A DNA stretch of 61,962 bases from Candidatus Gastranaerophilales bacterium (GTDB lineage Bacteria; Cyanobacteriota; Vampirovibrionia; Gastranaerophilales; Gastranaerophilaceae): assembly GCA_944324255.1 (NCBI GenBank), contig CALUVM010000010.1:1-61962 (forward strand), given 5' to 3'. How positions within the stretch are numbered: the first letter of the stretch is position 1; each line of letters starts with the position of its first letter. A program made the position numbers and the translations under genes. A model generated the notes under the pieces. That model saw nothing but the letters and a program-made list of their open reading frames with translations. It ran no database searches and was not told where the DNA came from. This document shows, one piece after another, positions 18,680-33,608 of this stretch.

Positions 18680-19678
18680 TTACACCTTCATTCTTGAAAG
18701 CGCAAAGTCTTTTTTGTTCAAATCCTCGAGTTTAGAACCAAGCATAATTTTTTCTGCTTCTTCAAGAATACTTACTACAGTATAACCGTTTTCTCCGTCT
18801 GAACGGGCTTTATGACCTGATGAGCAGCAGTTTAAGAAGTGCTGACACTCAAGCTTCAAAGGCTCAATTTCAAGATAATCAAGCGGATAGTTCTGTGTAT
18901 TTGCCGGAATAAAGTTATCATAAACTTTTAACTTATCCGTAGGAGCCGTATCATCAAATACAGCAGTAGCTTTCGTACCTCTTACGAGTAATGTAACTCT
19001 TTTTTGAGGAGTAATCCAACTGTCAGAAATATGAGCGACAAGTCCATCCTCAAATTCAACTCCGATATGTGTTATATCCATTATAGAGTTTTTCTCCGAA
19101 GAACAACCAATCGCAGAAATAACTCTTACCGGATTTTTACCTGTTACATAAGCAATCATTGAAACATCATGAGGTGCCAAATCCCACATAACACTTCTGT
19201 CGTTTTTATGATAATTGACATTGAGTCTATCACTTTGAGCGTAAATAAGATCTCCTAACACATCTTCTTCTATAAGCATTCTCAATCTGTTAACAGCAGG
19301 ATGGTATAAAAGTAAATGTCCTACCATTAAAATTAAGCCTTTTTCTTCAGCCAATTCGGTTAAAACCTTTGCTTCTTCGGCTACTGTTGAAATTGGTTTT
19401 TCAACATAAACATTCTTTCCCGCTTCAAGCATAGCTTTTACCATCTTGAAATGAGTATGGCTTGGAGTAACAACTGCAACTCCGGTTATAGAATCGTCAT
19501 TTATAATATCGTGAAAATCTTTTGTTACTTTTACACCGGGATATTGTTCTTTTACTGTCTTTAAAGATTCATCGTCCAAATCACAAACAATATCAAGAAC
19601 ATTTAAATTATAAAAATTACGGACAATATTTCGTCCCCACATCCCAAAACCAATTACTGCGACTTTTTGTTCTTTCAT
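18680..19678 (-). CDS. Gfo/Idh/MocA-family NAD(P)-dependent oxidoreductase
   Basis: About 332 residues. The Rossmann domain begins KVAVIGFGMWGRN, followed by VVTPSHTHF and the family motif VYVEKPIS, in which the lysine contacts cofactor and substrate. The C-terminal half is the beta-sheet domain, with WDLAPHDVSMI providing the conserved histidine. Related enzymes oxidise or reduce sugars, inositols or UDP-sugars. The sequence is reminiscent of UDP-GlcNAc 3-dehydrogenases (WlbA/WbpB), but no aminotransferase partner is adjacent. GAGAAGG precedes ATG 19678. A frame open to 19741 adds non-family residues. Confidence 0.85.
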   Translation of the reverse strand: MKEQKVAVIGFGMWGRNIVRNFYNLNVLDIVCDLDDESLKTVKEQYPGVKVTKDFHDIINDDSITGVAVVTPSHTHFKMVKAMLEAGKNVYVEKPISTVAEEAKVLTELAEEKGLILMVGHLLLYHPAVNRLRMLIEEDVLGDLIYAQSDRLNVNYHKNDRSVMWDLAPHDVSMIAYVTGKNPVRVISAIGCSSEKNSIMDITHIGVEFEDGLVAHISDSWITPQKRVTLLVRGTKATAVFDDTAPTDKLKVYDNFIPANTQNYPLDYLEIEPLKLECQHFLNCCSSGHKARSDGENGYTVVSILEEAEKIMLGSKLEDLNKKDFALSRMKV

Positions 19679-19956
19679 ACCTTCTCTTTTCCTTCTTAAT
19701 AAGGTTATTATATTACAACAGTTTATTTCAGTAAAGGGCAATCATATTAAGATTAAATAAAAATTTGCAAAAAATTTCATCAATATTTGCTTGATTTTTC
19801 AGATTTCTTGCAAATGATTCTAAACAAATATTAAGATAATTTATCAAAAATTTATAACTTTTGTATCTATTATTTATCTTTATGATAGAATTATTTTAAG
19901 TTTAAAAAATCCAATTACAACTCAATACAAACGAGCTGAAATTATTAATTTACAAA

Positions 19957-21039
19957 GTGATGGAATTAAAATTGAAATACGCTAATACCGAAAAAATAGG
20001 AGTGCCAAGAGCTCTGTCATATTATAACAATTACCCGTTCTATCATGGTTTTCTGACCTCTCTGGGGTTTGAAATTGTGCTTTCAGATAAAACGACAACT
20101 AAACTCATTAATGACGGCGCATCACGTGTTGTTTCCGATACGTGCTTACCTATAAAAGTTTATGTCGGACATTTATTAAATTTACTTGATAAAGGAGTGG
20201 ATACTATTTTTGTTCCATCCCTTCAATCCACTGATTATAAAATTAACAATTGCAGTAAAATCAGAGGTCTGCCCGAAATTATGAGAAATATAATTGACAG
20301 ACCTTTTAGAATGATTGAACCGACTCTTGATAAAACAGAAGGATTGGGAATAAAAGATTTCTGTTATGAAACTGCCCGTCAGCTGGGAATTTATGACGAA
20401 GAACTTATTGAGAAATCTATAAAATCCGGCTGGGAATGCTATAACAATTTTATTAAAATGGCACACTCCGGTGTTTCACAACAATCTGCAATTGAAAGTG
20501 CAATAAATAACAAACAGGCTTTAAAAAAGATGGAGCTTGTAAAGCCGTTATCCGTTGTTATTATGGCTCACGGTTATAATCTTTATGATGAAAGAATTTC
20601 TATGAGATTGCTTAAAAAGCTTGAAAACATGGGAGTAAAAGCTTATACTTCACTGGATATTACAAGAGAGGAACAGCTAAATTCTATTCGTGAACTCGGA
20701 GAAATTCAATACTGGGCAAACGAACTTGATTTAACAGGAACAGCCGCTTATTATCTTTTAAACAACGAGGTAGACGGAATTATTGCATTATCTGCATTCG
20801 GCTGCGGACCTGACTCTTTAATGGTAGATGAAATTCAGTATCACGCCGCTGAACGAAATATGCCTATGATACATCTGACAATAGATGAGCATACAGGAGA
20901 AGCCGGTTTTGTTACAAGATTGGAAGCCTTCATTGATATGCTTTCAAGAAAAAAAATGAAACAAAAACAAAAATTAAAACAAAAGGAACCGATAAAAGTT
21001 ACTCCTGCAGAAACGGAAAGGATATTAACCAAAGTATAA
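19957..21039 (+). CDS. Acyl-CoA dehydratase activase-related protein (DUF2229-like)
   Basis: A 360-residue protein beginning KIGVPRALSYYNNYPFYHGF after about ten residues. This is a pattern I associate with the DUF2229 half of large 2-hydroxyacyl-CoA dehydratase activases. Conserved cysteines occur in DTCLPIKVYVGH, NNCSKIRGLPE and SAFGCGPDSLMVDEI, plausible iron-sulfur ligands. The ATP-binding BcrAD/BadF domain normally fused in front is absent. The end (TIDEHTGEAGFVTRLEAFID) recurs almost unchanged in the gene at 22097. Start may be GTG 19957 or ATG 19960, and no good ribosome site is seen. Its stop overlaps the PHP gene as TAATG. Actual substrate unknown. Confidence 0.78.
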   Translation: MMELKLKYANTEKIGVPRALSYYNNYPFYHGFLTSLGFEIVLSDKTTTKLINDGASRVVSDTCLPIKVYVGHLLNLLDKGVDTIFVPSLQSTDYKINNCSKIRGLPEIMRNIIDRPFRMIEPTLDKTEGLGIKDFCYETARQLGIYDEELIEKSIKSGWECYNNFIKMAHSGVSQQSAIESAINNKQALKKMELVKPLSVVIMAHGYNLYDERISMRLLKKLENMGVKAYTSLDITREEQLNSIRELGEIQYWANELDLTGTAAYYLLNNEVDGIIALSAFGCGPDSLMVDEIQYHAAERNMPMIHLTIDEHTGEAGFVTRLEAFIDMLSRKKMKQKQKLKQKEPIKVTPAETERILTKV

Positions 21040-22085
21040 TGCCGACATTAAGCGAAAAAAAACTAAAAAGTTACAGTTATCTGGGCGGAATACATATCCA
21101 CTCAACGTTTTCTGACGGCTCCGGAGATATTGAGAAAATAAGTCTTGCCGCAAAAAGTGCAGGATTGGATTGGATAATTATAACAGACCATAATTCAATG
21201 GATATTCAGGAGGGTTTTTACAACGGCATTCTGGCAATAAAAGGAGAGGAAATTTCCCCTGAAAAATCAAATCATTATCTGGCTTTAGGAATAGAAAAGA
21301 ATATAACAGCTCCGGATCCTTCAAGTTATATTGAAGAAGTAAGGAGCCAGCAGGGGTTCGGGTTTGCTGCGCATCCTGACGAATCTGAAACCAGACAAAA
21401 TCCTTATGTCCCTATAAGATGGACTGATAAAAATATTCTGCCTGACGGTGTTGAAATCTGGAATTGGTTTTCTGAATGGGCTGATAATTTTAGCAGCAAA
21501 AATATTTTCAGCAAAGCATACGCATATCTTTTTAAACATAATCTTGTAAAAGGAGCTAACCCGCAGACTATAAACTGGTGGGATAAACTTAATAATATAA
21601 ATAACAATATTATTCCTGCAATAGGCGGAATTGATGCTCACGCTTTAAAAATTCCGGGCTACATTCTTCCGGTTACGGTATTTCCTTATAAGTCCATGTT
21701 TAAAACCATAACAAATGTTATAACATTAAAGGAACCTCTTTCGGGAGATTTTCAAACCGCAAAATCACAGATTTTAAACGCAATAAAAAGCGGAAACAAT
21801 TTTGTTATAAACAGAAAAGTGTCCAAAAACATTCCTGTTTTTAAAATAAAAAATAAAACAGGAGAAGCGCATTCCGGCGAAAGTATTGAACTGGATAATA
21901 ACACTATCCTTACAGTTAAGGCAGCGCCGAAATGTTCAATCAAAGTTTTCCATAACGGAGAAGAAATTATGCATAACATTTCGGACAAACTCAAAATTAT
22001 TCTTGATAGAGCAGGAAAATACAGGGTAGAAATAAAAATAGGAAATAAAGGGTTTGCATACTCAAATCCCGTATTAGTTTATTAA
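21039..22085 (+). CDS. PHP-domain metal-dependent hydrolase (CehA/McbA-like)
   Basis: A 348-residue protein. The PHP signature is clear: GGIHIHSTFSDGSG gives HxH, then IIITDHNSM, IKGEEIS and later AAHPDE and GGIDAHA, which supply the remaining metal ligands. The C-terminal 80 residues resemble an Ig-like beta domain. PHP enzymes are di- or trinuclear metal phosphoesterases, and the CehA/McbA branch also contains ester hydrolases. The start codon shares a base with the upstream stop (TAATG), so it is coupled to the activase-like gene. It is sandwiched between two dehydratase/activase-like proteins, which suggests a common pathway. Confidence 0.82.
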   Translation: MPTLSEKKLKSYSYLGGIHIHSTFSDGSGDIEKISLAAKSAGLDWIIITDHNSMDIQEGFYNGILAIKGEEISPEKSNHYLALGIEKNITAPDPSSYIEEVRSQQGFGFAAHPDESETRQNPYVPIRWTDKNILPDGVEIWNWFSEWADNFSSKNIFSKAYAYLFKHNLVKGANPQTINWWDKLNNINNNIIPAIGGIDAHALKIPGYILPVTVFPYKSMFKTITNVITLKEPLSGDFQTAKSQILNAIKSGNNFVINRKVSKNIPVFKIKNKTGEAHSGESIELDNNTILTVKAAPKCSIKVFHNGEEIMHNISDKLKIILDRAGKYRVEIKIGNKGFAYSNPVLVY

Positions 22086-22096
22086 AAGGAAAGATT

Positions 22097-23299
22097 GTGA
22101 AAGCAAAAATAAGCGAAGAACAATTAAATAGATATTCCAAAAATATGGATAACACTATCGCTGCAAAAGATAGGGTTATCGCCTGGCCGAGAATGGGCAG
22201 AATTGATATTCCCCTGAAAGCTCTTGTACACAATCTCGGTGCAAAATACATTATTCCTCCTGCAAACAGTAATGAAGCTCTTGAACTCGGAGTTAAAAAC
22301 AGTATTGAAGGTATCTGCCTGCCTTATAAATTAAACCTTGCAAACTATATTATGGCATTAGAAAACGGAGCTAACACTTTAATGATGTTTCAGGCACCGG
22401 GTTCATGCCGGCTCGGGAACTATACCAAAATGGCTCAAAAAACATTAAAAAAAATGGGATATGAATTTGATATGGTCATTTTTGACATGTACCAGAGCAA
22501 AATGAAACAAACTCTGCAAGCTTTCTGGCATGTTACTCATTGTTTGAATCCGTTCAGCTACTATAAGGCTTTCAGTCTGGGATTTAATAAATTCTTTGCA
22601 ATAGATGAAGCTCAAAAACTTCTGTTCTACTGCCGCCCGAGAGAAATCCATAAAGGAGATTCCGAAAAACTTTATAATAAATGGCTTAAAATAATTGACG
22701 AAACCAATTCTATATGGAAAGGCAAGCAGCTTGTAAAAAAAATCAGAAAAGATTTCCAAAAAATTCAGATAGATAAAAACAAAGATGTACCAGTTGTCTA
22801 TTTACTCGGAGAGTTTTTTGTGTTATTAGACCCTTATATAAATCAGGATATAGAAAAGACACTCGGTGAAATGGGAATTGAAGTCCAACGTCAAATATGG
22901 TTTAGTGAATGGCTTGAAGGAGTTCTTAAACCGTCCATACTTAACAAAAAAGAATCTCATAGAGAACGCTGCGTCCGATATGCCGAAAAATATATGAAGC
23001 GGCCAATCGGCGGAGAATGCATAGAAACAATCGGAGATACTGTTTTTGCAGCAAAAAACAAAGTTGACGGAGTTATACATTTAATGCCGTTTTCATGCAT
23101 GCCGGAAATCGTTTCTCAAAATATATTATCCAAAGTAAGCAAAGAAGAAGATATTCCAGTACTGACTCTCGTTTTTGATGAGCAGACAGGAAAAGCAGGT
23201 TATATAACCAGAATTGAAGCTTTTATTGATCTGGTAAAAAGAAAAAAAATGAAGACAAAGAATAAGGAAAGAAAAGGAGAGAGTTTGGTCGCATGTTAA
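22097..23299 (+). CDS. 2-hydroxyacyl-CoA dehydratase/activase-superfamily protein
   Basis: A 400-residue relative of the protein at 19957. Cysteine motifs EGICLPYKLNLANYI, PGSCRLGNYTKM, GGECIETIGDT and PFSCMPEIVSQ resemble those of HgdB/BcrB-type subunits and the DUF2229 group, which bind 4Fe-4S clusters. The C-terminal segment VFDEQTGKAGYITRIEAFID closely mirrors the sister protein. No ATPase domain is present. The start is GTG 22097 after an AAGGAAAG site, and the 3' end overlaps the next ATG by 7 bases. With its sister it could form a two-component iron-sulfur reductase or scaffold, which is inference. Confidence 0.72.
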   Translation: MKAKISEEQLNRYSKNMDNTIAAKDRVIAWPRMGRIDIPLKALVHNLGAKYIIPPANSNEALELGVKNSIEGICLPYKLNLANYIMALENGANTLMMFQAPGSCRLGNYTKMAQKTLKKMGYEFDMVIFDMYQSKMKQTLQAFWHVTHCLNPFSYYKAFSLGFNKFFAIDEAQKLLFYCRPREIHKGDSEKLYNKWLKIIDETNSIWKGKQLVKKIRKDFQKIQIDKNKDVPVVYLLGEFFVLLDPYINQDIEKTLGEMGIEVQRQIWFSEWLEGVLKPSILNKKESHRERCVRYAEKYMKRPIGGECIETIGDTVFAAKNKVDGVIHLMPFSCMPEIVSQNILSKVSKEEDIPVLTLVFDEQTGKAGYITRIEAFIDLVKRKKMKTKNKERKGESLVAC

Positions 23300-24348
23300 A
23301 AGAATCTCGAAACAAAATGACGTTTGAACGTTTGAAATATTATAGACATTTATTCGGCGGGGCTTTGGAATGTATTCAGAGCAGATTATCAAAGAACCCT
23401 AAACCGTTATGTTTTTCTTTAATGGTAACCAGTGCCTGCAACTGTGATTGTGATTTTTGTTTCTGGAAATCTAAAAAAGGGCAGGATGATATGCCGACAG
23501 AAGAAATCGTAAGACTTCTGACGGAAGCAGGAGAAATAGGATATTTAGACAGCATCCTCTGGGGCGGTGAACCTCTTTTAAGGCAAGATTTTGCAGAAAT
23601 ATGCAAAGCTTCGCATGATGCGGGATTATATACAAAAATTGCTACAAACGGTTGGTTTTTGGAAACTAATCCTGATTTTGCAAAGTATACAGACCTGTCA
23701 TTTATTTCGCTTGATGCCATAGGAAAAGCTCATGATGACATCCGTCACTTACCGGGAATCTGCGATAAGGTTATGAACGGGATTGAATACCACAAAATTC
23801 ATTCTCCGAAAATGAGAATATATATCTGCTGTACGGTATCAACCCAGACCAGCTTTGAACAAATTAAAGAAGTTGCCCAGTACTGCAAAGATGCTGATAT
23901 TTTATTATACTTCACTGTTAATAAAGCTGCTTCAAGACCTGAAGAAGCTGAAAATGTTATTGAAACAGAACTTGAAAACGATCAGTTAGCAGAGATGTTT
24001 ATAAAAATTAAAGAACTAAAAAAACAGGGTTATCCTATAAGAAATTCATACTACTTTATGGATTACATTATTAATAAGAAAACATACTACGAATGCCACT
24101 GGCCAAGAATTGCAACTGTTATTTACTCAAACGGAGATATGCTCAGATGCTATGACAGAAAACCATTCATAAGCGTTCGCAACCGTTCGTTAAAAAGTGT
24201 AATTCAGGATCCTCTTTTTGTAGAAACAGTAAATCAATGTAAAGATTGTAAATTAGCCTGCGTAGGTAACTATGCACTTGACGCTTCCGGTTTATGGAGA
24301 CTTGAATGGCCGGCTATAAAATCTTTAATGGAAATCGCTATTACATAA
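23293..24348 (+). CDS. Radical SAM protein with C-terminal cysteine cluster
   Basis: A 351-residue enzyme. The SAM-binding cluster motif Cx3Cx2C is C49, C53 and C56 in SACNCDCDFCFW, followed by LWGGEPLL (the GGE motif) and FISLDAIG. The last 50 residues hold CYDRKPF and CKDCKLACVGNY, a SPASM/twitch-like auxiliary cluster. Such proteins modify peptides, lipids or sugars, and no precursor peptide is evident next to it. The ATG lies inside the end of the preceding gene. The export operon begins 30 bases later on the same strand. Confidence 0.87.
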   Translation: MLKESRNKMTFERLKYYRHLFGGALECIQSRLSKNPKPLCFSLMVTSACNCDCDFCFWKSKKGQDDMPTEEIVRLLTEAGEIGYLDSILWGGEPLLRQDFAEICKASHDAGLYTKIATNGWFLETNPDFAKYTDLSFISLDAIGKAHDDIRHLPGICDKVMNGIEYHKIHSPKMRIYICCTVSTQTSFEQIKEVAQYCKDADILLYFTVNKAASRPEEAENVIETELENDQLAEMFIKIKELKKQGYPIRNSYYFMDYIINKKTYYECHWPRIATVIYSNGDMLRCYDRKPFISVRNRSLKSVIQDPLFVETVNQCKDCKLACVGNYALDASGLWRLEWPAIKSLMEIAIT

Positions 24349-24378: not shown

Positions 24379-26952
24379 ATGAAAAAATTTATCATTACAT
24401 TAACAATACTGCTCATAGGCTCAGGAAGTTTTGCATCAACTACTAACCAGAATATGAATACTATTTCTCCGGTTATGCTTAATTCTATGCAAAATACGGG
24501 AGCCAGCACAAATAATATCAATCCGAATATTATTAATATAAACAGAAAAAGTCCGATTCATGGAGCAAGTATGCTTGAACCGTACAAAATGAATACACAT
24601 AACAGTTTGAATGAACGCACATTTGAAAACATGTATATGGACAGAAGCCAGAATGCTTTTGAAAATAATTACCAGACTTTTGCTGCTAATTCAAAGAAAC
24701 CTGAACTAAGCCAGGTTGAAAAACTGTTTAACGGTAAAGAAGCTGATGCAACAGTGACTCCGCTGCGTCAGGTCGGGTATGATATATTTAATTCATTCTC
24801 CTCAACTGATTCAAATACGACAGGAAAATTTAACGATGATTACAAATTGAGCGTGGGAGAGAAAGTCAGCATAAATCTGTACGGAGATTCTGTTGATGTA
24901 ATGGCGCTTTCAGGTGTTCATCTGCTTAGTCCTATTGTCCAAACGGAAGTCGACTCCAAGGGAGATATTTTTATTCAAGGTGTCGGCGTAATCCATGCGG
25001 AAGATAAAACAATACGAGAAGTCGAAAATCAAATCAATACAATGGCTTCAAGAAAATACAACAATCTAAAAGCCAGAATAAATGTAATGTCAGGCTCAGG
25101 ATTCTCTGTCTTTGTTTATGGTCAGGTTAATAAACCGGGTAAAGTTTTAATAAGCAACAACTCTTCATTCATAGATGCCTTAAGTGCGGCAGGAGGAGTT
25201 AAAAAATCCGGTACTTTAAGAAAAATAGCATATACCAGCGGAAAGAAAACCATAAATGTTGACTTATATAAAACTTTATTTTCTGATGAAAACGACAATA
25301 TTATCTTAAAACCGAATGACAGAATTTTTGTCGGGGGAATCGGAAGTGTAGTTGCGCTGAAAAACGGTGTCTCAGTTTCCGGTATTTATGAATTGAAAGA
25401 AGGGGAAACATTACAAAAGCTCGTTTCTATGGCGGGCGGACTCCTTCCTGGAACACAAACAACAGAAGTTACCCTTACTCGTTTGAATACAGAAACACTT
25501 GAAAGAACCGCCGAAAACATAAGCTGGACAGAAGCTAATCATTCTAAGCTTCAGAGCGGTGATATTATAGAATTCAGGGATTTATATAATGTTGCGGAAA
25601 ACACAGTCGTTCTTCAAGGTAATATAAAACACCCTGCAACTTTTGCTTACAAGCCTAATATGAGATTATCAGATATCTTAAAAAATAAAAAAGAACTGCT
25701 TGAAGAAACTTTCACAACTCAGGCGGTAATCAGAAGAATCTCTGATGAAGACGGAAGTATACAAACCATTCCGGTTTATTTAAAAGAATTCTTCGCAGGA
25801 ATGAATGACCCGCTTTTAAAACCAAGAGATATTATTAATATCTATAAAAATACAAATGCCGAATTCGTTGATGTATACGGGTGTATAAATATTCCTAAAC
25901 ATATAACCTATACGGAAGATATGAGATTGGATGATGTCCTTACTGACATCCAGTTTGTTGAATCCAATATAGATATAGAAGATAATAACGAAAAGAATGT
26001 ATCATTTACCGATAAATCCGGAGATGCGGCATTAGTCGGAGGAACATCCAATAACAACAGAGTTATCTCCGCAGAAAATGTTGCGGTAGAAATAACAGGA
26101 CTTGACGGCTCTACTCAGCTTTATTATCTGTATGACATAATGATTAACGGAGATACAATAAAATCAATACATCTTGCACCGTATGACAAGATATTCTTCA
26201 GAACCCTGCGTGATAATGAAACAATTAAAAACGTAAAAGTTTCAGGGTTTGTAAAAACTCCGGCTACGTTTAGATTTGTTGACGGAAAACGCCTTACAGA
26301 TATGATAGAAATGGCAGGAGGACTTACCAAAGACGCAGATTTAAGAGGTATTGTCTATACAAGAAAGAATCTGCAAGCACGTCAGGTAAATCTTGCGCAG
26401 AAAAATAATGAAAAAGACATAAAACTCTTAGAAGGTCGTATTGCCGGCGGTTTTAAACAAGCCTCCAGCGATATAGAAGCTAAAACTAATATGATTGGTA
26501 TGCTGAAGCAGGACCAGAAAGAGTTCAAAAACAAATACACAGGACAGATTGCTTTAAATATCAAAAATAATAACCTTAGCAAAATAAAAGATTCCGACAA
26601 TATAGAAGTTCAAGACGGCGACGAAATTTATATTCCGAGAATGACAAATCACGTAAGCGTCATAGGTGAAGTCTATAATGAACAGTCTTTTATGTTCCAA
26701 AAAGGTTCAAACGTAAAAACTTATATAAAAGAAGTCGGCGGCTACACTCCGAATGCTGCAAAATTCAGACTCTACAGAGTCGGGGTTAACGGCAGAGCGG
26801 AAAGAGTACACAGCTGGACAAGGATTGCACAGGGAGATACCATTGTTGTTCCTAGAAAAATTGCAGGAAACGACTGGATTACTCCTGTATGCGATACTCT
26901 CAGAGGTGTTGCATCAATTCTATCAACAGCGTTTGTCGTAACAAGGTGGTAA
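24379..26952 (+). CDS. Polysaccharide export protein with multiple SLBB domains (Wza-like)
   Basis: An 857-residue protein with a signal peptide (MKKFIITLTILLIGSGSFAS). After a 130-residue asparagine-rich linker, a polysaccharide-export domain begins near residue 155 (LSVGEKVSINLYG...VDSKGDIFIQGVGVI). Several SLBB-type repeats follow, each starting with a pattern like VYGQVNKPGKV, VSGIYELKEGETL, LQGNIKHPATF, VSGFVKTPATF and VIGEVYNEQSF. It ends in a hydrophobic helix (ASILSTAFVV), as Wza uses to cross the outer membrane. It is over twice Wza length because of the extra SLBB repeats. Likely the outer-membrane export channel for the polysaccharide. AGGAAAAGG precedes the ATG. Confidence 0.87.
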   Translation: MKKFIITLTILLIGSGSFASTTNQNMNTISPVMLNSMQNTGASTNNINPNIININRKSPIHGASMLEPYKMNTHNSLNERTFENMYMDRSQNAFENNYQTFAANSKKPELSQVEKLFNGKEADATVTPLRQVGYDIFNSFSSTDSNTTGKFNDDYKLSVGEKVSINLYGDSVDVMALSGVHLLSPIVQTEVDSKGDIFIQGVGVIHAEDKTIREVENQINTMASRKYNNLKARINVMSGSGFSVFVYGQVNKPGKVLISNNSSFIDALSAAGGVKKSGTLRKIAYTSGKKTINVDLYKTLFSDENDNIILKPNDRIFVGGIGSVVALKNGVSVSGIYELKEGETLQKLVSMAGGLLPGTQTTEVTLTRLNTETLERTAENISWTEANHSKLQSGDIIEFRDLYNVAENTVVLQGNIKHPATFAYKPNMRLSDILKNKKELLEETFTTQAVIRRISDEDGSIQTIPVYLKEFFAGMNDPLLKPRDIINIYKNTNAEFVDVYGCINIPKHITYTEDMRLDDVLTDIQFVESNIDIEDNNEKNVSFTDKSGDAALVGGTSNNNRVISAENVAVEITGLDGSTQLYYLYDIMINGDTIKSIHLAPYDKIFFRTLRDNETIKNVKVSGFVKTPATFRFVDGKRLTDMIEMAGGLTKDADLRGIVYTRKNLQARQVNLAQKNNEKDIKLLEGRIAGGFKQASSDIEAKTNMIGMLKQDQKEFKNKYTGQIALNIKNNNLSKIKDSDNIEVQDGDEIYIPRMTNHVSVIGEVYNEQSFMFQKGSNVKTYIKEVGGYTPNAAKFRLYRVGVNGRAERVHSWTRIAQGDTIVVPRKIAGNDWITPVCDTLRGVASILSTAFVVTRW

Positions 26953-26958
26953 TAAAAA

Positions 26959-28332
26959 ATGAAAAGTCTTTCAAAATCAGTTCTGGTAATGTTTATATAT
27001 GATTTGCTTGTATTCTTATTATCAAGCTGGTTCTGGTATGAAAAAACAGGATTAGACAAAAAACTTTTCATTCCGGCAGTCGCTCTGGTGGTTGTAACCG
27101 GATTATTTACCTTATTTTTGAAAGCAAATTACAAAATAAGAGAGTTCAATAATACCGGAAAAAACCTTTACTTACTGTTTGAAGGGGTTGTATTCTCACA
27201 AATACCGACAGCAATCTTATTTGGATTTTTTGGTTTTAATCTTTCAGTCGTTAAATTTTTAGCTGCCAATATTATAACTATTTTTGTGCTGTTAAAAATT
27301 TACAGAAGCCTTTTCCATTATTATCTGTTTAATTTAAAACCTGTAAAAAATATTCTATTAATCGGCACAAATAGAAATGCACGGCTTATGGCGGATGAAA
27401 TACTGGCAAAAAAAGCATTAAGAATGCATATTGCAGGTTTTGTAAGAGATACGAAAACTGATGAAGAGGACTGTCTGGCTGATAGCAGCGAGCAAATTTA
27501 TTCATTAGAAGACGGTTTGTCCAAAATTATTAGAGAAAAATCCGTTGATATAGTAATAGTAGCTATTCCCCGCAGAATGGAAGGAACTCTTTTAACGGAG
27601 ATGGTAAACTCAATCCCGAGAAGAGTAAAACTCTACACCATGCCGGAATTTTATGAAATGGTTACAGGAAAATATTTTATTGACAGAATGTCAATAAACG
27701 GATTGTTCTTTAATTTTATGAAAAATCGTTCTGCAGCTTATGATATTTGCAAAAGAATTTATGATATAGTAGCCGCAAGCATAATCCTTACGGTAACCTT
27801 ACCGATTACATTAACCGTTGCAATAAGAGTATGGTTAACAGACGGTGAAAACCCTTTGTATACCCAAAACAGAGTAGGAAAAGGCGGCAAAGTTTTCAAA
27901 TGCTATAAATTAAGAACAATGTATGCTAACAATTATGTTCCAACCTCCAATAATCTGGAACTCGCAGATAAACAGGAAGATGATGACAGGGTTATTCCAT
28001 GGTGTAAGTTCGTAAGAAAAGCACGCTTTGATGAAATTCCGCAGATGATAAATATTCTTAAAGGCGAGATGAGTATTGTTGGACCTCGTGCAGAATGGGA
28101 AGATTTGGTTAAGGTCTATAGTAAAGAAATTCCGGTACATTTTTGCAGGCACTGGGTTAAAACAGGATGGACAGGATGGGCTCAAATTAATCAAGGGCAT
28201 TGTTTTAATGATGCGGATGAACTGCTCAAACTTGAATATGATCTTTATTATATCAAACATAGAAACGTGTTATGGGAAATATCTATCTTAATAAAAGCAA
28301 TATTTTTGGCTTTAGGAGTACGACATGGATAA
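26959..28332 (+). CDS. Initiating polyprenyl-phosphate sugar-phosphate transferase (WbaP/WcaJ-like)
   Basis: A 457-residue membrane protein. Four N-terminal helices are followed by a CoA-binding-like domain (NILLIGTNRNARLMADEIL). The C-terminal catalytic domain shows the bacterial sugar transferase signature: KRIYDIVAAS helix, QNRVGKGGKVFKCYKLRTM, KARFDEIPQMINILKGEMS and IVGPRAEW. It transfers a sugar phosphate to undecaprenyl phosphate, the committed first step of Wzx/Wzy-type polysaccharide synthesis. It begins 6 bases after the export gene and overlaps the epimerase gene by 8 bases. No initiator is seen in the 1-8868 locus, so this one may serve it. Confidence 0.92.
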   Translation: MKSLSKSVLVMFIYDLLVFLLSSWFWYEKTGLDKKLFIPAVALVVVTGLFTLFLKANYKIREFNNTGKNLYLLFEGVVFSQIPTAILFGFFGFNLSVVKFLAANIITIFVLLKIYRSLFHYYLFNLKPVKNILLIGTNRNARLMADEILAKKALRMHIAGFVRDTKTDEEDCLADSSEQIYSLEDGLSKIIREKSVDIVIVAIPRRMEGTLLTEMVNSIPRRVKLYTMPEFYEMVTGKYFIDRMSINGLFFNFMKNRSAAYDICKRIYDIVAASIILTVTLPITLTVAIRVWLTDGENPLYTQNRVGKGGKVFKCYKLRTMYANNYVPTSNNLELADKQEDDDRVIPWCKFVRKARFDEIPQMINILKGEMSIVGPRAEWEDLVKVYSKEIPVHFCRHWVKTGWTGWAQINQGHCFNDADELLKLEYDLYYIKHRNVLWEISILIKAIFLALGVRHG

Positions 28333-29249: not shown

Positions 29250-30611
29250 ATGCAGCAGCAACTAAACTACTATCCTATGCAGGATGAACTTGATGAAGAA
29301 CTTACCATTGATTTGAAAAAGATTTTCTTTGCACTATGGAGCAGAAAAGTGCTTATCATAAGTGTTTTTATATGTGTACTGGTATTTTTTATACTTCTTA
29401 CATTTATTCTGCCTAAAAAATATAAGGTCGATGCGGATTTATATATTAACAAATCCAACAACTCAAATATGGCAGAGTTAAACCCGTATGTTATTTCCGA
29501 ACTCGGAGCCGGCGGGGGAATGGCTGCCATAATGAGCGGAGGCGGAACTCTGGCTAACGATATTGAGCTTATGCAATCGCCGTTGGTTATTGATAAAGTT
29601 ATCAGAGATAATGATTTAAGATACAAAAAACTTTTCGGTATTTTCCCTACAAAGAAAACCGGACAATACATAGCCGCAGACAAATTTATTAAAAAAGGAA
29701 TTTCTTTTGAAAACAAAAAAGGTACAAATGTTGTTACTATTGAATATAAAAATAAAGACAAAGACCTTGCATATAATGTAGTTAACTCGGTAATAGTACA
29801 TTATCTGGAACTTAACCGTGAAATAAACTCTGCTAAAGCAAAATCCGACAAAAAAATTATTGAATCAGAATATAAAAAAGCCAAAGAATCTCTGGATATT
29901 AATATGAATAAAGTCGGAGGGCTTCCTGAAAATGCAATGATGACGACAGGAACTCTTGCCGCCATGAGTGCATATTCAAGTTCCGCACAAAAAGCTATGT
30001 CAACTCTTAGAGGTCAATATATTGAAGGAACAAAATCAAAAATAGAACTAACTGAAGATGCCGCAAAAGTTGCCGCATTATCTTCAAAACTTGAATGGGC
30101 AAAAATGGTTGATGAAATGTCAGATTCTTCAAAAGTTATTGTCCTGAAAGAGCCTAGAAAACTACAGGATTACGAACAGGCATCACCTAAGCTTTTAACA
30201 AATATCCTGCTAGGAATTGTTTTTGGTGCGATAGCAGCTCTTTTTGCAGTAATTTTTGCTGAAAATACCGATAAAAAGCTGACTTTTTCTATGCTTGGTG
30301 ATAATATTATTTATAATCTTGAAAATGATATTTCAGATTTAAACTTAACATTGCTTGCAAACCAGGATAAGAAAATCTCATTTATCTTATTTGAAAGAAT
30401 GCCTGCAAATGTACTTGAAGGGTTTAGAGAATTTAAGAATATAAATCTTGTCAAGGGTGAAATATCAAACGAATTTGTTAACGGAATAAAGGATTCTTCA
30501 AACATAATAACTTTTGCAGAAATTGGAAAAACAAATTCAAAACTCTATAAACAGGTTAAAAAAATAGTTCAGGAAATGAACAAAAATATCTTAGAAGAAG
30601 TTTTAATATAA
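29250..30611 (+). CDS. Wzz-family chain-length/co-polymerase protein
   Basis: A 453-residue protein. The N-terminal Wzz segment (LTIDLKKIFFALWSRK followed by a helix near residues 37-58) precedes a long periplasmic part with a glycine-rich patch (GAGGGMAAIMSGGG) and helical stretches. KEPRKLQDYEQASPKLL, a proline-containing motif, leads into the second helix (about 320-342). About 110 cytoplasmic residues follow. They lack Walker A and the tyrosine tail of Wzc-type BY-kinases, so this may be a degenerate kinase domain or another regulator domain. It sets polymer length with Wzy and the export channel. AAAGGAG precedes the ATG. Confidence 0.85.
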   Translation: MQQQLNYYPMQDELDEELTIDLKKIFFALWSRKVLIISVFICVLVFFILLTFILPKKYKVDADLYINKSNNSNMAELNPYVISELGAGGGMAAIMSGGGTLANDIELMQSPLVIDKVIRDNDLRYKKLFGIFPTKKTGQYIAADKFIKKGISFENKKGTNVVTIEYKNKDKDLAYNVVNSVIVHYLELNREINSAKAKSDKKIIESEYKKAKESLDINMNKVGGLPENAMMTTGTLAAMSAYSSSAQKAMSTLRGQYIEGTKSKIELTEDAAKVAALSSKLEWAKMVDEMSDSSKVIVLKEPRKLQDYEQASPKLLTNILLGIVFGAIAALFAVIFAENTDKKLTFSMLGDNIIYNLENDISDLNLTLLANQDKKISFILFERMPANVLEGFREFKNINLVKGEISNEFVNGIKDSSNIITFAEIGKTNSKLYKQVKKIVQEMNKNILEEVLI

Positions 30612-30624
30612 GAAAGGGAATAAA

Positions 30625-32139
30625 ATGAGAGTAGAAAAACAGTCAACAGTCTGGCAATCAAATTCAATGGGCTGCTTTGACAAACTTAAGTTAAAATTTA
30701 ATGACTTTATAATTGATCAAACAATTAATTATCTCGGACATAATTTTAGTAAAGAAAAACTCATCAGACTTGCTAAAATATTTGAAAAAATTGCAGGTTC
30801 AAAAGGCGGAATCAATCACGCAAAACGTATGCAGTGGCTGTTTGAATCAGAGCATCCGCATCTTCTGTGGTGGAAAAAGATTCTAACAGAACTTGACCCT
30901 AATTGCCGCAACAAATGGATTAAAAACTTCTTTGTAAACGGTTATTACGGAGATAATTTAAGAAAACGTTCAGAATTCAACAAAAAACATGGATTCTTCC
31001 CGCCGACAGTTTTACTGGCAAGTATTACAAAAAATTGTAATTTCCATTGCAAAGGCTGCTGGGCGCATGAATACGATGTGCGTGAAGACTTAACAAAAGA
31101 AAAATGGAGAGAAATATTTACGGAAGCCCGTGATGTTATGGGTATCCATATCTTCCCGATAGTAGGAGGTGAACCATTCTGCCGCAAAGAATTTCTTGAA
31201 CTCGCTGAAGAATTTAACGACTGCACATTTATTACATTTACAAACGGTTCGTTAATTACCGAAAAGACTATTGAAAAGCTCAAGAAACTAGGTAATGTTC
31301 AGCCAATGTTCTCTCTTGGCGGAATGAAAGAAAATAATGACAAAATCAGAGGTGAAGGCTGCTTTGATATGGTTATGAAGAAAATGGACATGCTTAAAGA
31401 AGCAGGTATCCTCTTCGGAAGCTCAATTACCGTCACAAAAGAAAACTGCGACGAAGTTATCTCCGATGATTATATGAAAATGTTGTCCGATAAAGGCTGC
31501 CTCTGGAGCTGGTTCTTCCATTATGTACCTATCGGAGAAAATCCTGATGTGGATTTAGTTCCTGATGCACAGCAACGTCAGCGCATACTTAAAGCCGTTT
31601 ATAATGCAAGAAATACTCTTCCTATGATGACAGTTGATTTCTGGGGCGACGGGCCTGAAATGATGGGTTGTATTGCAGGCGGAAGACAATATATTCACGT
31701 TAACCCTAAAGGGGACGTTGAACCTTGTACTTTCGTACACCTTGCAACCCACAATGTTAACAATTGTACTCTGACAGAAGCTCTTGCGTCTCCGTTTATG
31801 AGAGCTATAAGAGATGGAATTCCGTATGAAGACGGCAACATGCTAAGACCGTGTATGATTGTTGACAGACCGGAAGTTTTGAGAAAATACTATGAAGAGT
31901 TTAAACCTTATGAAACTCACGCAAAAGCCGCAGATTATTTAACAAACCCTGAAATAAAAGCAAAAATCGATAAATATTCAAGCGATGTTAAAGAAATCCT
32001 TGACGAAGATTGGAGAAATAACTTGTGGATGACAATCTTCCCGCTTGAAGGTGAATACTATATAGACAGAGATCATTTTTGTTCAACTCAAAAACCGGAA
32101 CATTCTTGTACCGGAAACTGTGCAGCCTGCGGAAAATAA
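30625..32139 (+). CDS. Radical SAM/SPASM-type protein in polysaccharide operon
   Basis: A 504-residue protein. About 110 residues of helical N-terminus precede the radical SAM core with C138, C142 and C145 (ITKNCNFHCKGCWAHEYD), PIVGGEPFCR and ITFTNGSLI. Cysteines later, in MGCIAGG, VEPCTFVHLA and LRPCMIVD, suggest an auxiliary iron-sulfur cluster. The tail HSCTGNCAACGK could bind another metal. The substrate is unknown. Being in the export operon 13 bases after the wzz-like gene, it may modify a lipid or sugar of the pathway. AGAAAGGG lies before the ATG. Confidence 0.87.
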   Translation: MRVEKQSTVWQSNSMGCFDKLKLKFNDFIIDQTINYLGHNFSKEKLIRLAKIFEKIAGSKGGINHAKRMQWLFESEHPHLLWWKKILTELDPNCRNKWIKNFFVNGYYGDNLRKRSEFNKKHGFFPPTVLLASITKNCNFHCKGCWAHEYDVREDLTKEKWREIFTEARDVMGIHIFPIVGGEPFCRKEFLELAEEFNDCTFITFTNGSLITEKTIEKLKKLGNVQPMFSLGGMKENNDKIRGEGCFDMVMKKMDMLKEAGILFGSSITVTKENCDEVISDDYMKMLSDKGCLWSWFFHYVPIGENPDVDLVPDAQQRQRILKAVYNARNTLPMMTVDFWGDGPEMMGCIAGGRQYIHVNPKGDVEPCTFVHLATHNVNNCTLTEALASPFMRAIRDGIPYEDGNMLRPCMIVDRPEVLRKYYEEFKPYETHAKAADYLTNPEIKAKIDKYSSDVKEILDEDWRNNLWMTIFPLEGEYYIDRDHFCSTQKPEHSCTGNCAACGK

Positions 32140-32142
32140 CAA

Positions 32143-32754
32143 ATGAAAAAAATAATTTTATTAATTATTGCTTTTCTTATATTTACAATACTTATAAACT
32201 TTTGTCCCGTAATAACCTTATGGGACAAGAGTTTTATTATAAGCATACAAAATTTAATGAAAAATATTCCCGTAATTTTTGCTCTGCTTCCGGATTGTAT
32301 ACTTTATTCCATAATGATAGCTCTTCCTTTAATAACGGGCGGAATCTATTTTATTATCAACAAAAACAGGATTAATTTTATAATTCTATGCACATTGCCT
32401 CTGGCTCCGTTTTTGATGAATTGTATAATAAAAACCCTTCTTCACCGTCAAAGACCGCCTATGGAATTACAACTATCAATCCATCCGCATAGTTTTAGCT
32501 ATGTGTCCAGCCATAGCCTTATTACATTCTGCCTTTGGGGCGGCGTAATATATTTCTTAAACAGATACTGTAAAAACAAATACTTAAAATTTACAGGAAT
32601 TCTGTTTTCTATTTTATGGATTTTATATGTCGGAATATCCAGAATCTGGCTCGGAGTTCATCACCCTTCTGATGTTTTGGGAGCATACATTCTTGGAAGT
32701 ATTATAGTATTATTTTATATTAAATTATTTGAAAAATTTGAGGTTCAAGAATGA
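32143..32754 (+). CDS. PAP2-family phosphatase
   Basis: A 203-residue membrane protein with about six helices. The three catalytic motifs are present: K-x6-RP in KTLLHRQRP, a variant of PSGH as VSSHSLITF, and SR-x5-H-x3-D in SRIWLGVHHPSD. PAP2 enzymes remove phosphate from phosphatidic acid or undecaprenyl diphosphate. Its position after the polysaccharide genes and before a lipid kinase suggests recycling of the lipid carrier, which is inference. It begins 3 bases after the radical SAM stop and overlaps the kinase gene by 4 bases (ATGA). Confidence 0.88.
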   Translation: MKKIILLIIAFLIFTILINFCPVITLWDKSFIISIQNLMKNIPVIFALLPDCILYSIMIALPLITGGIYFIINKNRINFIILCTLPLAPFLMNCIIKTLLHRQRPPMELQLSIHPHSFSYVSSHSLITFCLWGGVIYFLNRYCKNKYLKFTGILFSILWILYVGISRIWLGVHHPSDVLGAYILGSIIVLFYIKLFEKFEVQE

Positions 32755-33608
32755 AAAACGTTATTGTAATCTCAAATTTTGACGCCGGCAGAAGAAAAGC
32801 TCTCAAGTATAAAAAAGAGGTGCAGAAGTTTTTGCTGAATAATGCAGAATCATTTAAATTTATATCGCTGGATGAACTTTCTTCACAGGATATGAAAAAG
32901 TATGACACAATTCTTATTATGGGCGGCGACGGAACAATTAACAAAGTTTTGCCTTATCTTGACGATACCGGAGTTTTAGGAATAATTCCATGCGGAACAG
33001 CTAATCTTCTTGCCGCCAGATTAGGAATACCTGCCAATATAAAAAAAGCTCTTAAAATTATAAAGCAGGAAACTGTATTTGAAACTGATGTTTTGAATAT
33101 TAACGACAGAGATTGTGTTTTGAGATGCGGGATAGGCTATGATTCCAATATTATCTGCCGCACCCCGCAGAAACTTAAAAATAATTTCGGTTACTTTGCC
33201 TATTTTGCAGCGGGAATTCTATTTGCCTTAAGGCTTAAAAATAAAGAATATAATATTAAAACCCCTGAAATAGAAAAAAATATAAACTCAAGCTGTATAA
33301 TTATAGCAAACGCTCCAAATATGTTTCATAATTTTGTATCTGTCGGAAATAAATCAGAACTTAACGATAAAAAATTTGAAGTTTTTATTTTAAAAACAGC
33401 AAACCCGATACTGTTTTTTATAGAATTTCTTTTAATTATCTTAAATATCAAAAGAAATAACTCCAGAGCGGAATATTTTCAGACAAACAGTATATCCATC
33501 TCATCTAAATATTTTAATATACATATTGACGGAGAAAACTGCAAAGAACACGATAATATTTCCTGCAAAATAAAAAACAGCCGGATTAAAATTTTTAAAA
33601 AACCCTAG
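32751..33608 (+). CDS. Diacylglycerol-kinase-family lipid kinase
   Basis: A 285-residue protein of the DagK/YegS fold. ILIMGGDGTINKVLPY holds the nucleotide-binding GGDGT motif. GIIPCGTANLLAARLGIP is the second conserved block, and CGIGYDSNI the third. The C-terminal half is the beta-sandwich domain ending in FNIHIDGENC. It phosphorylates a lipid alcohol such as diacylglycerol or undecaprenol at the inner membrane. The start overlaps the PAP2 stop, and the pair may control lipid-carrier phosphorylation. It is the last gene of the run, and the terminator hairpin begins inside its 3' end. Confidence 0.88.
   Translation: MKNVIVISNFDAGRRKALKYKKEVQKFLLNNAESFKFISLDELSSQDMKKYDTILIMGGDGTINKVLPYLDDTGVLGIIPCGTANLLAARLGIPANIKKALKIIKQETVFETDVLNINDRDCVLRCGIGYDSNIICRTPQKLKNNFGYFAYFAAGILFALRLKNKEYNIKTPEIEKNINSSCIIIANAPNMFHNFVSVGNKSELNDKKFEVFILKTANPILFFIEFLLIILNIKRNNSRAEYFQTNSISISSKYFNIHIDGENCKEHDNISCKIKNSRIKIFKKP

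Follow-up and report, generated by a model that had tools for sequence, protein, structure and literature searches.

A DUF2229/HGD-D protein pair in an all-or-none polysaccharide export module of Gastranaerophilaceae, with a candidate activase encoded elsewhere in the genome

The 61,962 nucleotides of Candidatus Gastranaerophilales DNA analyzed here (the window) contain two genes, A and B, whose products are, by predicted fold and by motif, a divergent pair within the BCR/HAD/DCCP superfamily. The two genes belong to a module of eight (A, PHP, B, radical SAM 1, SLBB exporter, radical SAM 2, PAP2 and DAGK-type kinase) that extends to approximately 33.6 kb and is inherited within the Gastranaerophilaceae on an all-or-none basis, and a gene for a complete activase lies on another contig of the same genome. 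Both the module and the unlinked activase gene are well supported.

Organization of the locus

The genes of the module and those interspersed with them are listed in Table 1. A preliminary description of this DNA had recognized the first four genes, their order and their close or overlapping spacing, and all of this was found as described: A and the PHP gene have 1 base in common, 11 bases separate the PHP gene from B, and B overlaps the radical SAM 1 gene by 7 bases. It had also placed a polysaccharide export gene 30 bases past radical SAM 1, which is where the SLBB/Poly_export gene begins (position 24379). The four-gene boundary was too narrow, since the co-inherited module reaches position 33608, and the radical SAM enzyme that had been reported is present but is one of two. 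An additional ATG start for A occurs at 19960.

Table 1. Genes of the module and their neighbors in the window
Gene	Position	Strand	Description
A	19957..21039	+	DUF2229/HGD-D protein, BCR/HAD/DCCP fold (predicted); 3 invariant Cys (63, 99, 283)
PHP	21039..22085	+	PHP-domain metallohydrolase, CehA/McbA-like; putative metal-site residues conserved
B	22097..23299	+	HGD-D-like partner of A, BCR/HAD/DCCP fold (predicted); 3 invariant Cys (74, 104, 334)
Radical SAM 1	23293..24348	+	CNCDCDFC site; weak SPASM and DUF3463/HpnH-C-terminal matches
SLBB exporter	24379..26952	+	SLBB/Poly_export outer-membrane polysaccharide export protein
Sugar transferase	26959..28332	+	Polyprenyl-phosphate sugar phosphotransferase (Bac_transf); often, not always, beside module
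Wzz	29250..30611	+	Wzz-type chain-length determinant; often beside module
Radical SAM 2	30625..32139	+	504 aa, SPASM-like, SkfB/PqqE relatives
PAP2	32143..32754	+	PAP2 lipid-phosphate phosphatase; directly after radical SAM 2 in module loci inspected
Kinase	32751..33608	+	DAGK_cat lipid kinase, YegS/BmrU type, GGDGT motif

Using Pfam, we found that A matched DUF2229 (PF09989, 1.8e-46) and had a short HGD-D tail, and that B matched HGD-D (2.9e-8) and, more weakly, DUF2229 (9.3e-8). The PHP protein has kept its putative metal-site residues (H19, H21, D50, H51, E71, H112, D199 and H201). Radical SAM 1 had a core match to the cytosylglucuronate decarboxylase BlsE, the nearest PDB entry to radical SAM 2 was the sactipeptide maturase SkfB (6.5e-23, mainly over the radical SAM core), and the PAP2 protein showed a weak match to SepP. 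Neither radical SAM protein fell into a family with known lipid function. An assignment of these two to the membrane-spanning lipid synthases (Tes/Mss) was not adopted, as their GDGT-MAS matches were confined to the core (7e-8 for radical SAM 2, to be compared with the SkfB value above, and 9e-7 for radical SAM 1); the anti-phage protein viperin was likewise set aside, the PADLOC match being to a generic radical SAM core.

Upstream of A, and divergent from it, lies a GFO/IDH/MocA oxidoreductase gene (18680-19741) whose best NCBIfam match, UDP-N-acetylglucosamine 3-dehydrogenase, was below the cut-off. Farther upstream, between positions 1559 and 8868, translations read by eye indicated acyltransferase-3-like, glycosyltransferase, O-antigen-polymerase-like and Wzx-like flippase genes, a polysaccharide cluster that makes a Wzx/Wzy-type pathway probable in the window. 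Scanning for promoters and terminators gave counts close to the shuffled expectation.

Predicted fold and conserved cysteines of A and B

AlphaFold2 models of A and B were built from alignments. The A model (pLDDT 88.4) gave Z scores of 12.5-16.2 to HadBC, DCCP, BzdNO and MbdO, with the next fold at 8.9, and the B model (pLDDT 84.8) gave 11.4-15.3 to the same four, with the next fold at 9.7; the matches cover almost the entire chain of each protein. Fold and motif thus support the superfamily originally proposed for the pair. Both proteins had also been called cysteine-rich, a term that does not suit the 5 cysteines in the 360 amino acids of A or the 8 in the 400 of B. The relevant residues are the three cysteines of A (63, 99 and 283) and the three of B (74, 104 and 334) that are invariant among 15 sequences ranging from Gastranaerophilales to Bacillota; in A and in B alike, the last of the three corresponds in alignment to a cysteine of DCCP. 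An Fe-S cluster is probably bound by these three residues in each half. A nearly identical segment at the end of A (IDEHTGEAGFVTRLEAFID) and of B (FDEQTGKAGYITRIEAFID), pointed out in the preliminary description, is present in both proteins, but it is a general C-terminal motif of the family and is not specific to this pair; A and B are 39% identical over 64 amino acids. That A and B act as partners is supported by one Bacillota genome in which the two are fused into a single protein of 765 amino acids, followed by an activase (L148:8974-11271).

A candidate activase encoded in trans

The ATP-binding domain of such systems had been described as absent. This holds for the locus but not for the genome, since a complete BcrAD_BadFG activase is encoded on contig C17. 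The search for a BadF/BcrAD-type ATPase elsewhere, which had been proposed as a check, found one conserved copy in each of the 67 Gastranaerophilaceae genomes, so that the system is without its ATPase only in a local sense. The C17 activase is full length, is 81-94% identical among these genomes and is unlinked to A and B. Its gene is single-copy whether a genome has one or two A/B pairs, and in many clostridial A-B-activase triads the third gene encodes an activase to which the protein is 52-59% identical. We infer that A and B are probably activated in trans by this protein; the unlinked activase and the doubled A/B pair described below would together represent a dispersed and duplicated version of the clostridial triad.

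The C17 activase gene (L012:4335-5339, G000) is located between a TolC-like gene and kdsA/aroA-like genes, and its product has an extra C-terminal cysteine motif, CQCTGCSNNC. The same genome also encodes, on contig C15 (L011:7250-7912), a different and partial protein of 220 amino acids that aligns with the central portion of the BcrAD/BadF profile. It adjoins an AGCS-like transporter and recurs in some relatives as a weak match of about 230 amino acids.

Conservation and co-inheritance of the module

Conservation of the gene set across genomes had been suggested as a further check, and the order A-PHP-B-radical SAM 1 was indeed contiguous in 17 of 21 related loci (A-PHP-B in 20 of them). In most of these loci, genes for the SLBB exporter, the DAGK-type kinase, radical SAM 2 and PAP2 follow. 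All eight module genes have the same direction in three genomes (G095, G111 and G105).

Co-inheritance was determined in the 67 Gastranaerophilaceae genomes, mostly drafts, within a class-wide sample, a gene being scored as absent where there was no match at the cut-off. One set of 22 genomes had window-type B, radical SAM 1, radical SAM 2, the exporter and the kinase, each of which was searched separately, and the remaining 45 had none of the five. The chance that two such patterns would be identical is approximately 4e-18 if the genomes are treated as independent, which they are not. The PHP protein had a strong match in 23 of the 88 genomes of a second sample, and membership of PAP2 in the module is based on synteny. 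Seven genera contain both module-bearing and module-free genomes, so the set has been gained or lost repeatedly as a unit. Linkage alone does not explain this co-presence, since the module genes are dispersed over two loci in G022 and in G085 and over at least three places in G010. The most conserved members are radical SAM 1 (87-93% identity) and radical SAM 2 (85-93%), and the least conserved are the PHP protein, the kinase and PAP2 (about 46-59%).

A second A/B pair and more distant relatives

The genome from which the window is taken (1.89 Mb in 43 contigs) belongs to a family whose A and B best match named Candidatus Gastranaerophilales records, and on that basis we take the family to be the Gastranaerophilaceae. 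It contains a second A/B pair on contig C1, which is 54% (A) and 42% (B) identical to the pair in the window. No CoA genes were noticed among the ORFs read beside either pair, in agreement with what had been said of the window. It had been allowed that the proteins might serve an ordinary fermentation pathway encoded elsewhere; no partner for one was found in the genome, where the two A/B pairs are the sole PF06050/PF09989 proteins. All 67 family genomes contain a match to B, which is to a housekeeping-type B, to the related C-terminal region of A, or to both, and no match to B was obtained in the other families of the class-wide sample.

In Melainabacteria GWA2_34_9 and Gastranaerophilales PL23b the genes are adjacent in the order radical SAM 2-B-A-B, with both B types and one A. 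Radical SAM 1 (57-62%) and the exporter (33-38%) are found elsewhere in these two genomes, and the kinase was matched only in GWA2_34_9. Each B type formed a supported clade in the B tree (100/98 for window-type B) and both clades included GWA2_34_9 and PL23b, so the duplication of B predates the family; that of A appears to be later. All Gastranaerophilales B sequences fell into one clade inside the Bacillota radiation. A search of 299 Bacillota genomes for radical SAM 1, a set that included no positive control, gave no match at E 1e-30.

Relatives of radical SAM 2 on enterobacterial plasmids and in Bacillota are stand-alone genes without A/B and were uninformative. Those on Escherichia albertii and Klebsiella pneumoniae plasmids (L094:2254-3633 and L095:14998-16299) are lone radical SAM genes that share 32-33% identity with radical SAM 2 and whose surroundings contain no module partners, and the genome of Desulfotomaculum copahuensis (Bacillota; L131, L208:5525-8341) has two in tandem (38%).

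Comparison with known systems

The nearest known arrangement is the clostridial A-B-activase triad, which consists of a DUF2229 protein, a 2-hydroxyacyl-CoA dehydratase-like protein and a BadF/BcrAD activase and is annotated, for example, in Monoglobus, Caloranaerobacter, Orenia and Moorella. By our reading of A-bearing loci in Bacillota and Thermotogota, A, B and the activase lie side by side in 36 of 42 (in one with A and B fused). The Gastranaerophilaceae genome likewise encodes homologous A, B and activase as three separate proteins, but here the activase is on another contig and the A/B pair is doubled. No homologues of the PHP, radical SAM, exporter, PAP2 or kinase genes were seen in the examined flanks of the clostridial triads.

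PlsA/PlsR and Ger, which convert glycerolipid esters to vinyl or alkyl ethers, are more distant. They share with A and B the domain types Red1 (DUF2229 with an HGD-D tail) and Red2 (HGD-D-like) and the use of a BcrAD activase, but PlsA/PlsR and Ger carry Red1 and one or two activase domains as a single fused polypeptide, an architecture taken here from PMC12838417, PMC13274423 and the fused homologues in our own analysis. A has no PF01869 domain, whereas the fused proteins of Listeria, Collinsella, Paraclostridium and Fusobacterium do. In trees A and B were placed outside the fused PlsA-type group, with support but on very long branches.

Among the better characterized members of the superfamily, DCCP/DCCP-R resembles the present system in the fold of its catalytic protein and in having the activase as a separate component, and differs in that DCCP is a homodimer with small-molecule substrates, A and B being two different proteins with three conserved cysteines each. 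HadBC and BzdNO resemble it in fold, in the pairing of homologous subunits and in the ATP-dependent activase, but structure alignment gave only 10-16% identity, and here the activase is unlinked. In this superfamily the activator hydrolyzes ATP and passes very-low-potential electrons to cluster-bearing catalytic subunits, which then carry out radical reductions or dehydrations (PMC11971306). We found no paper on the module described here in our literature search, and none on ether lipids or lipid data of Gastranaerophilales.

Possible function of the module

Taken as a whole, the reading that A and B form an ATP-energized radical reductase, activated in trans and acting on the lipid that carries or anchors an exported glycan, is in our judgment an even call. 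A and B would be the two catalytic halves of an anaerobic Fe-S reductase of the BCR/HAD/DCCP superfamily, with the low-potential electron supplied by the C17 BadF/BcrAD-type activase, which presumably serves the C1 pair as well. This reductase would work inside the all-or-none exported-glycan module, together with the two radical SAM enzymes, the PHP protein, the DAGK-type kinase, PAP2 and the SLBB channel, and its most likely role would be a radical reduction on the lipid part of the glycan, for example the conversion of an ester to a vinyl or alkyl ether, which is the chemistry of the related PlsA/Ger. PAP2 and the kinase could take the lipid to and from the free alcohol, and the radical SAM enzymes might make further modifications. 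We infer the lipid substrate and the type of reaction from several observations. The kinase, PAP2 and the domain kinship to PlsA/Ger favor a lipid; the strict tie to the SLBB exporter and the frequent Wzz and sugar transferase neighbors indicate that the product concerns an exported glycan; and a lipid anchor or carrier would fit both. Since A and B are distant from the fused PlsA-type proteins, reduction of a lipid ester does not follow from homology, and this step taken alone is tentative and, on balance, doubtful. PAP2 could also simply be an undecaprenyl-diphosphatase, given its weak SepP match, which would count against this reading.

The preliminary description had proposed a lipid or sugar precursor as the substrate, which is plausible given a kinase, PAP2 and exporter in the same module, and a sugar is the main rival. 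The pair would then perform an ATP-driven dehydration or reduction of a nucleotide-linked or lipid-linked sugar, giving an unusual (e.g. deoxy) residue of the exported polysaccharide, with the kinase and PAP2 only recycling the carrier lipid. Radical SAM enzymes that act on sugars exist, and the linkage to the exporter, the Wzz and sugar transferase neighbors and the BlsE match of radical SAM 1 would all suit such chemistry, although this match is limited to the radical SAM core, as are many others. To our knowledge the characterized relatives of A and B act on acyl-CoA or lipid esters and none on sugars, and a YegS-type kinase would be superfluous, so we consider a sugar substrate rather unlikely. 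Improbable, in our view, is that A and B merely duplicate the housekeeping pair, perform the same non-glycan task (for instance the reduction of a cofactor or a small molecule, like DCCP) and are linked to the module by hitch-hiking. The family genomes do have a housekeeping pair at the identities given above, and no physiological role is known for the DCCP family; however, window-type B forms its own supported clade older than the family, never occurred among the 67 genomes without both radical SAM enzymes, the exporter and the kinase, and is co-present with them even where the genes sit in separate loci, which hitch-hiking fails to explain. The proximity of radical SAM 2 to SkfB might instead indicate a maturation system in which a peptide or protein is the target of the two radical SAM enzymes (SPASM-type) and A/B serves to reduce or recharge a cofactor for them. 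We regard this as very improbable, since the SkfB match lies mainly in the core, lipid and export genes dominate the module, and no precursor peptide was noticed, though without a systematic search.

A 2026 report on bacterial ether lipids noted that Bacillota genomes encode PlsA-like homologues that lack an activation domain, and called their role unclear (PMC13274423). In the present case such activase-free proteins occur in a lineage other than Bacillota, together with a candidate trans activase and a strict genomic context, which make their role testable. If the lipid reading is true, glycan export in this gut lineage, most of which is uncultured, would be tied to radical reduction chemistry. 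It is possible, though we put it forward tentatively, that in these non-photosynthetic gut relatives of the cyanobacteria the lipid part of an exported polysaccharide is built by a hitherto undescribed anaerobic pathway, consisting of two radical SAM enzymes and an ATP-driven radical reductase energized by a single activase common to two pairs; the activase-free PlsA-like proteins would then have a role.
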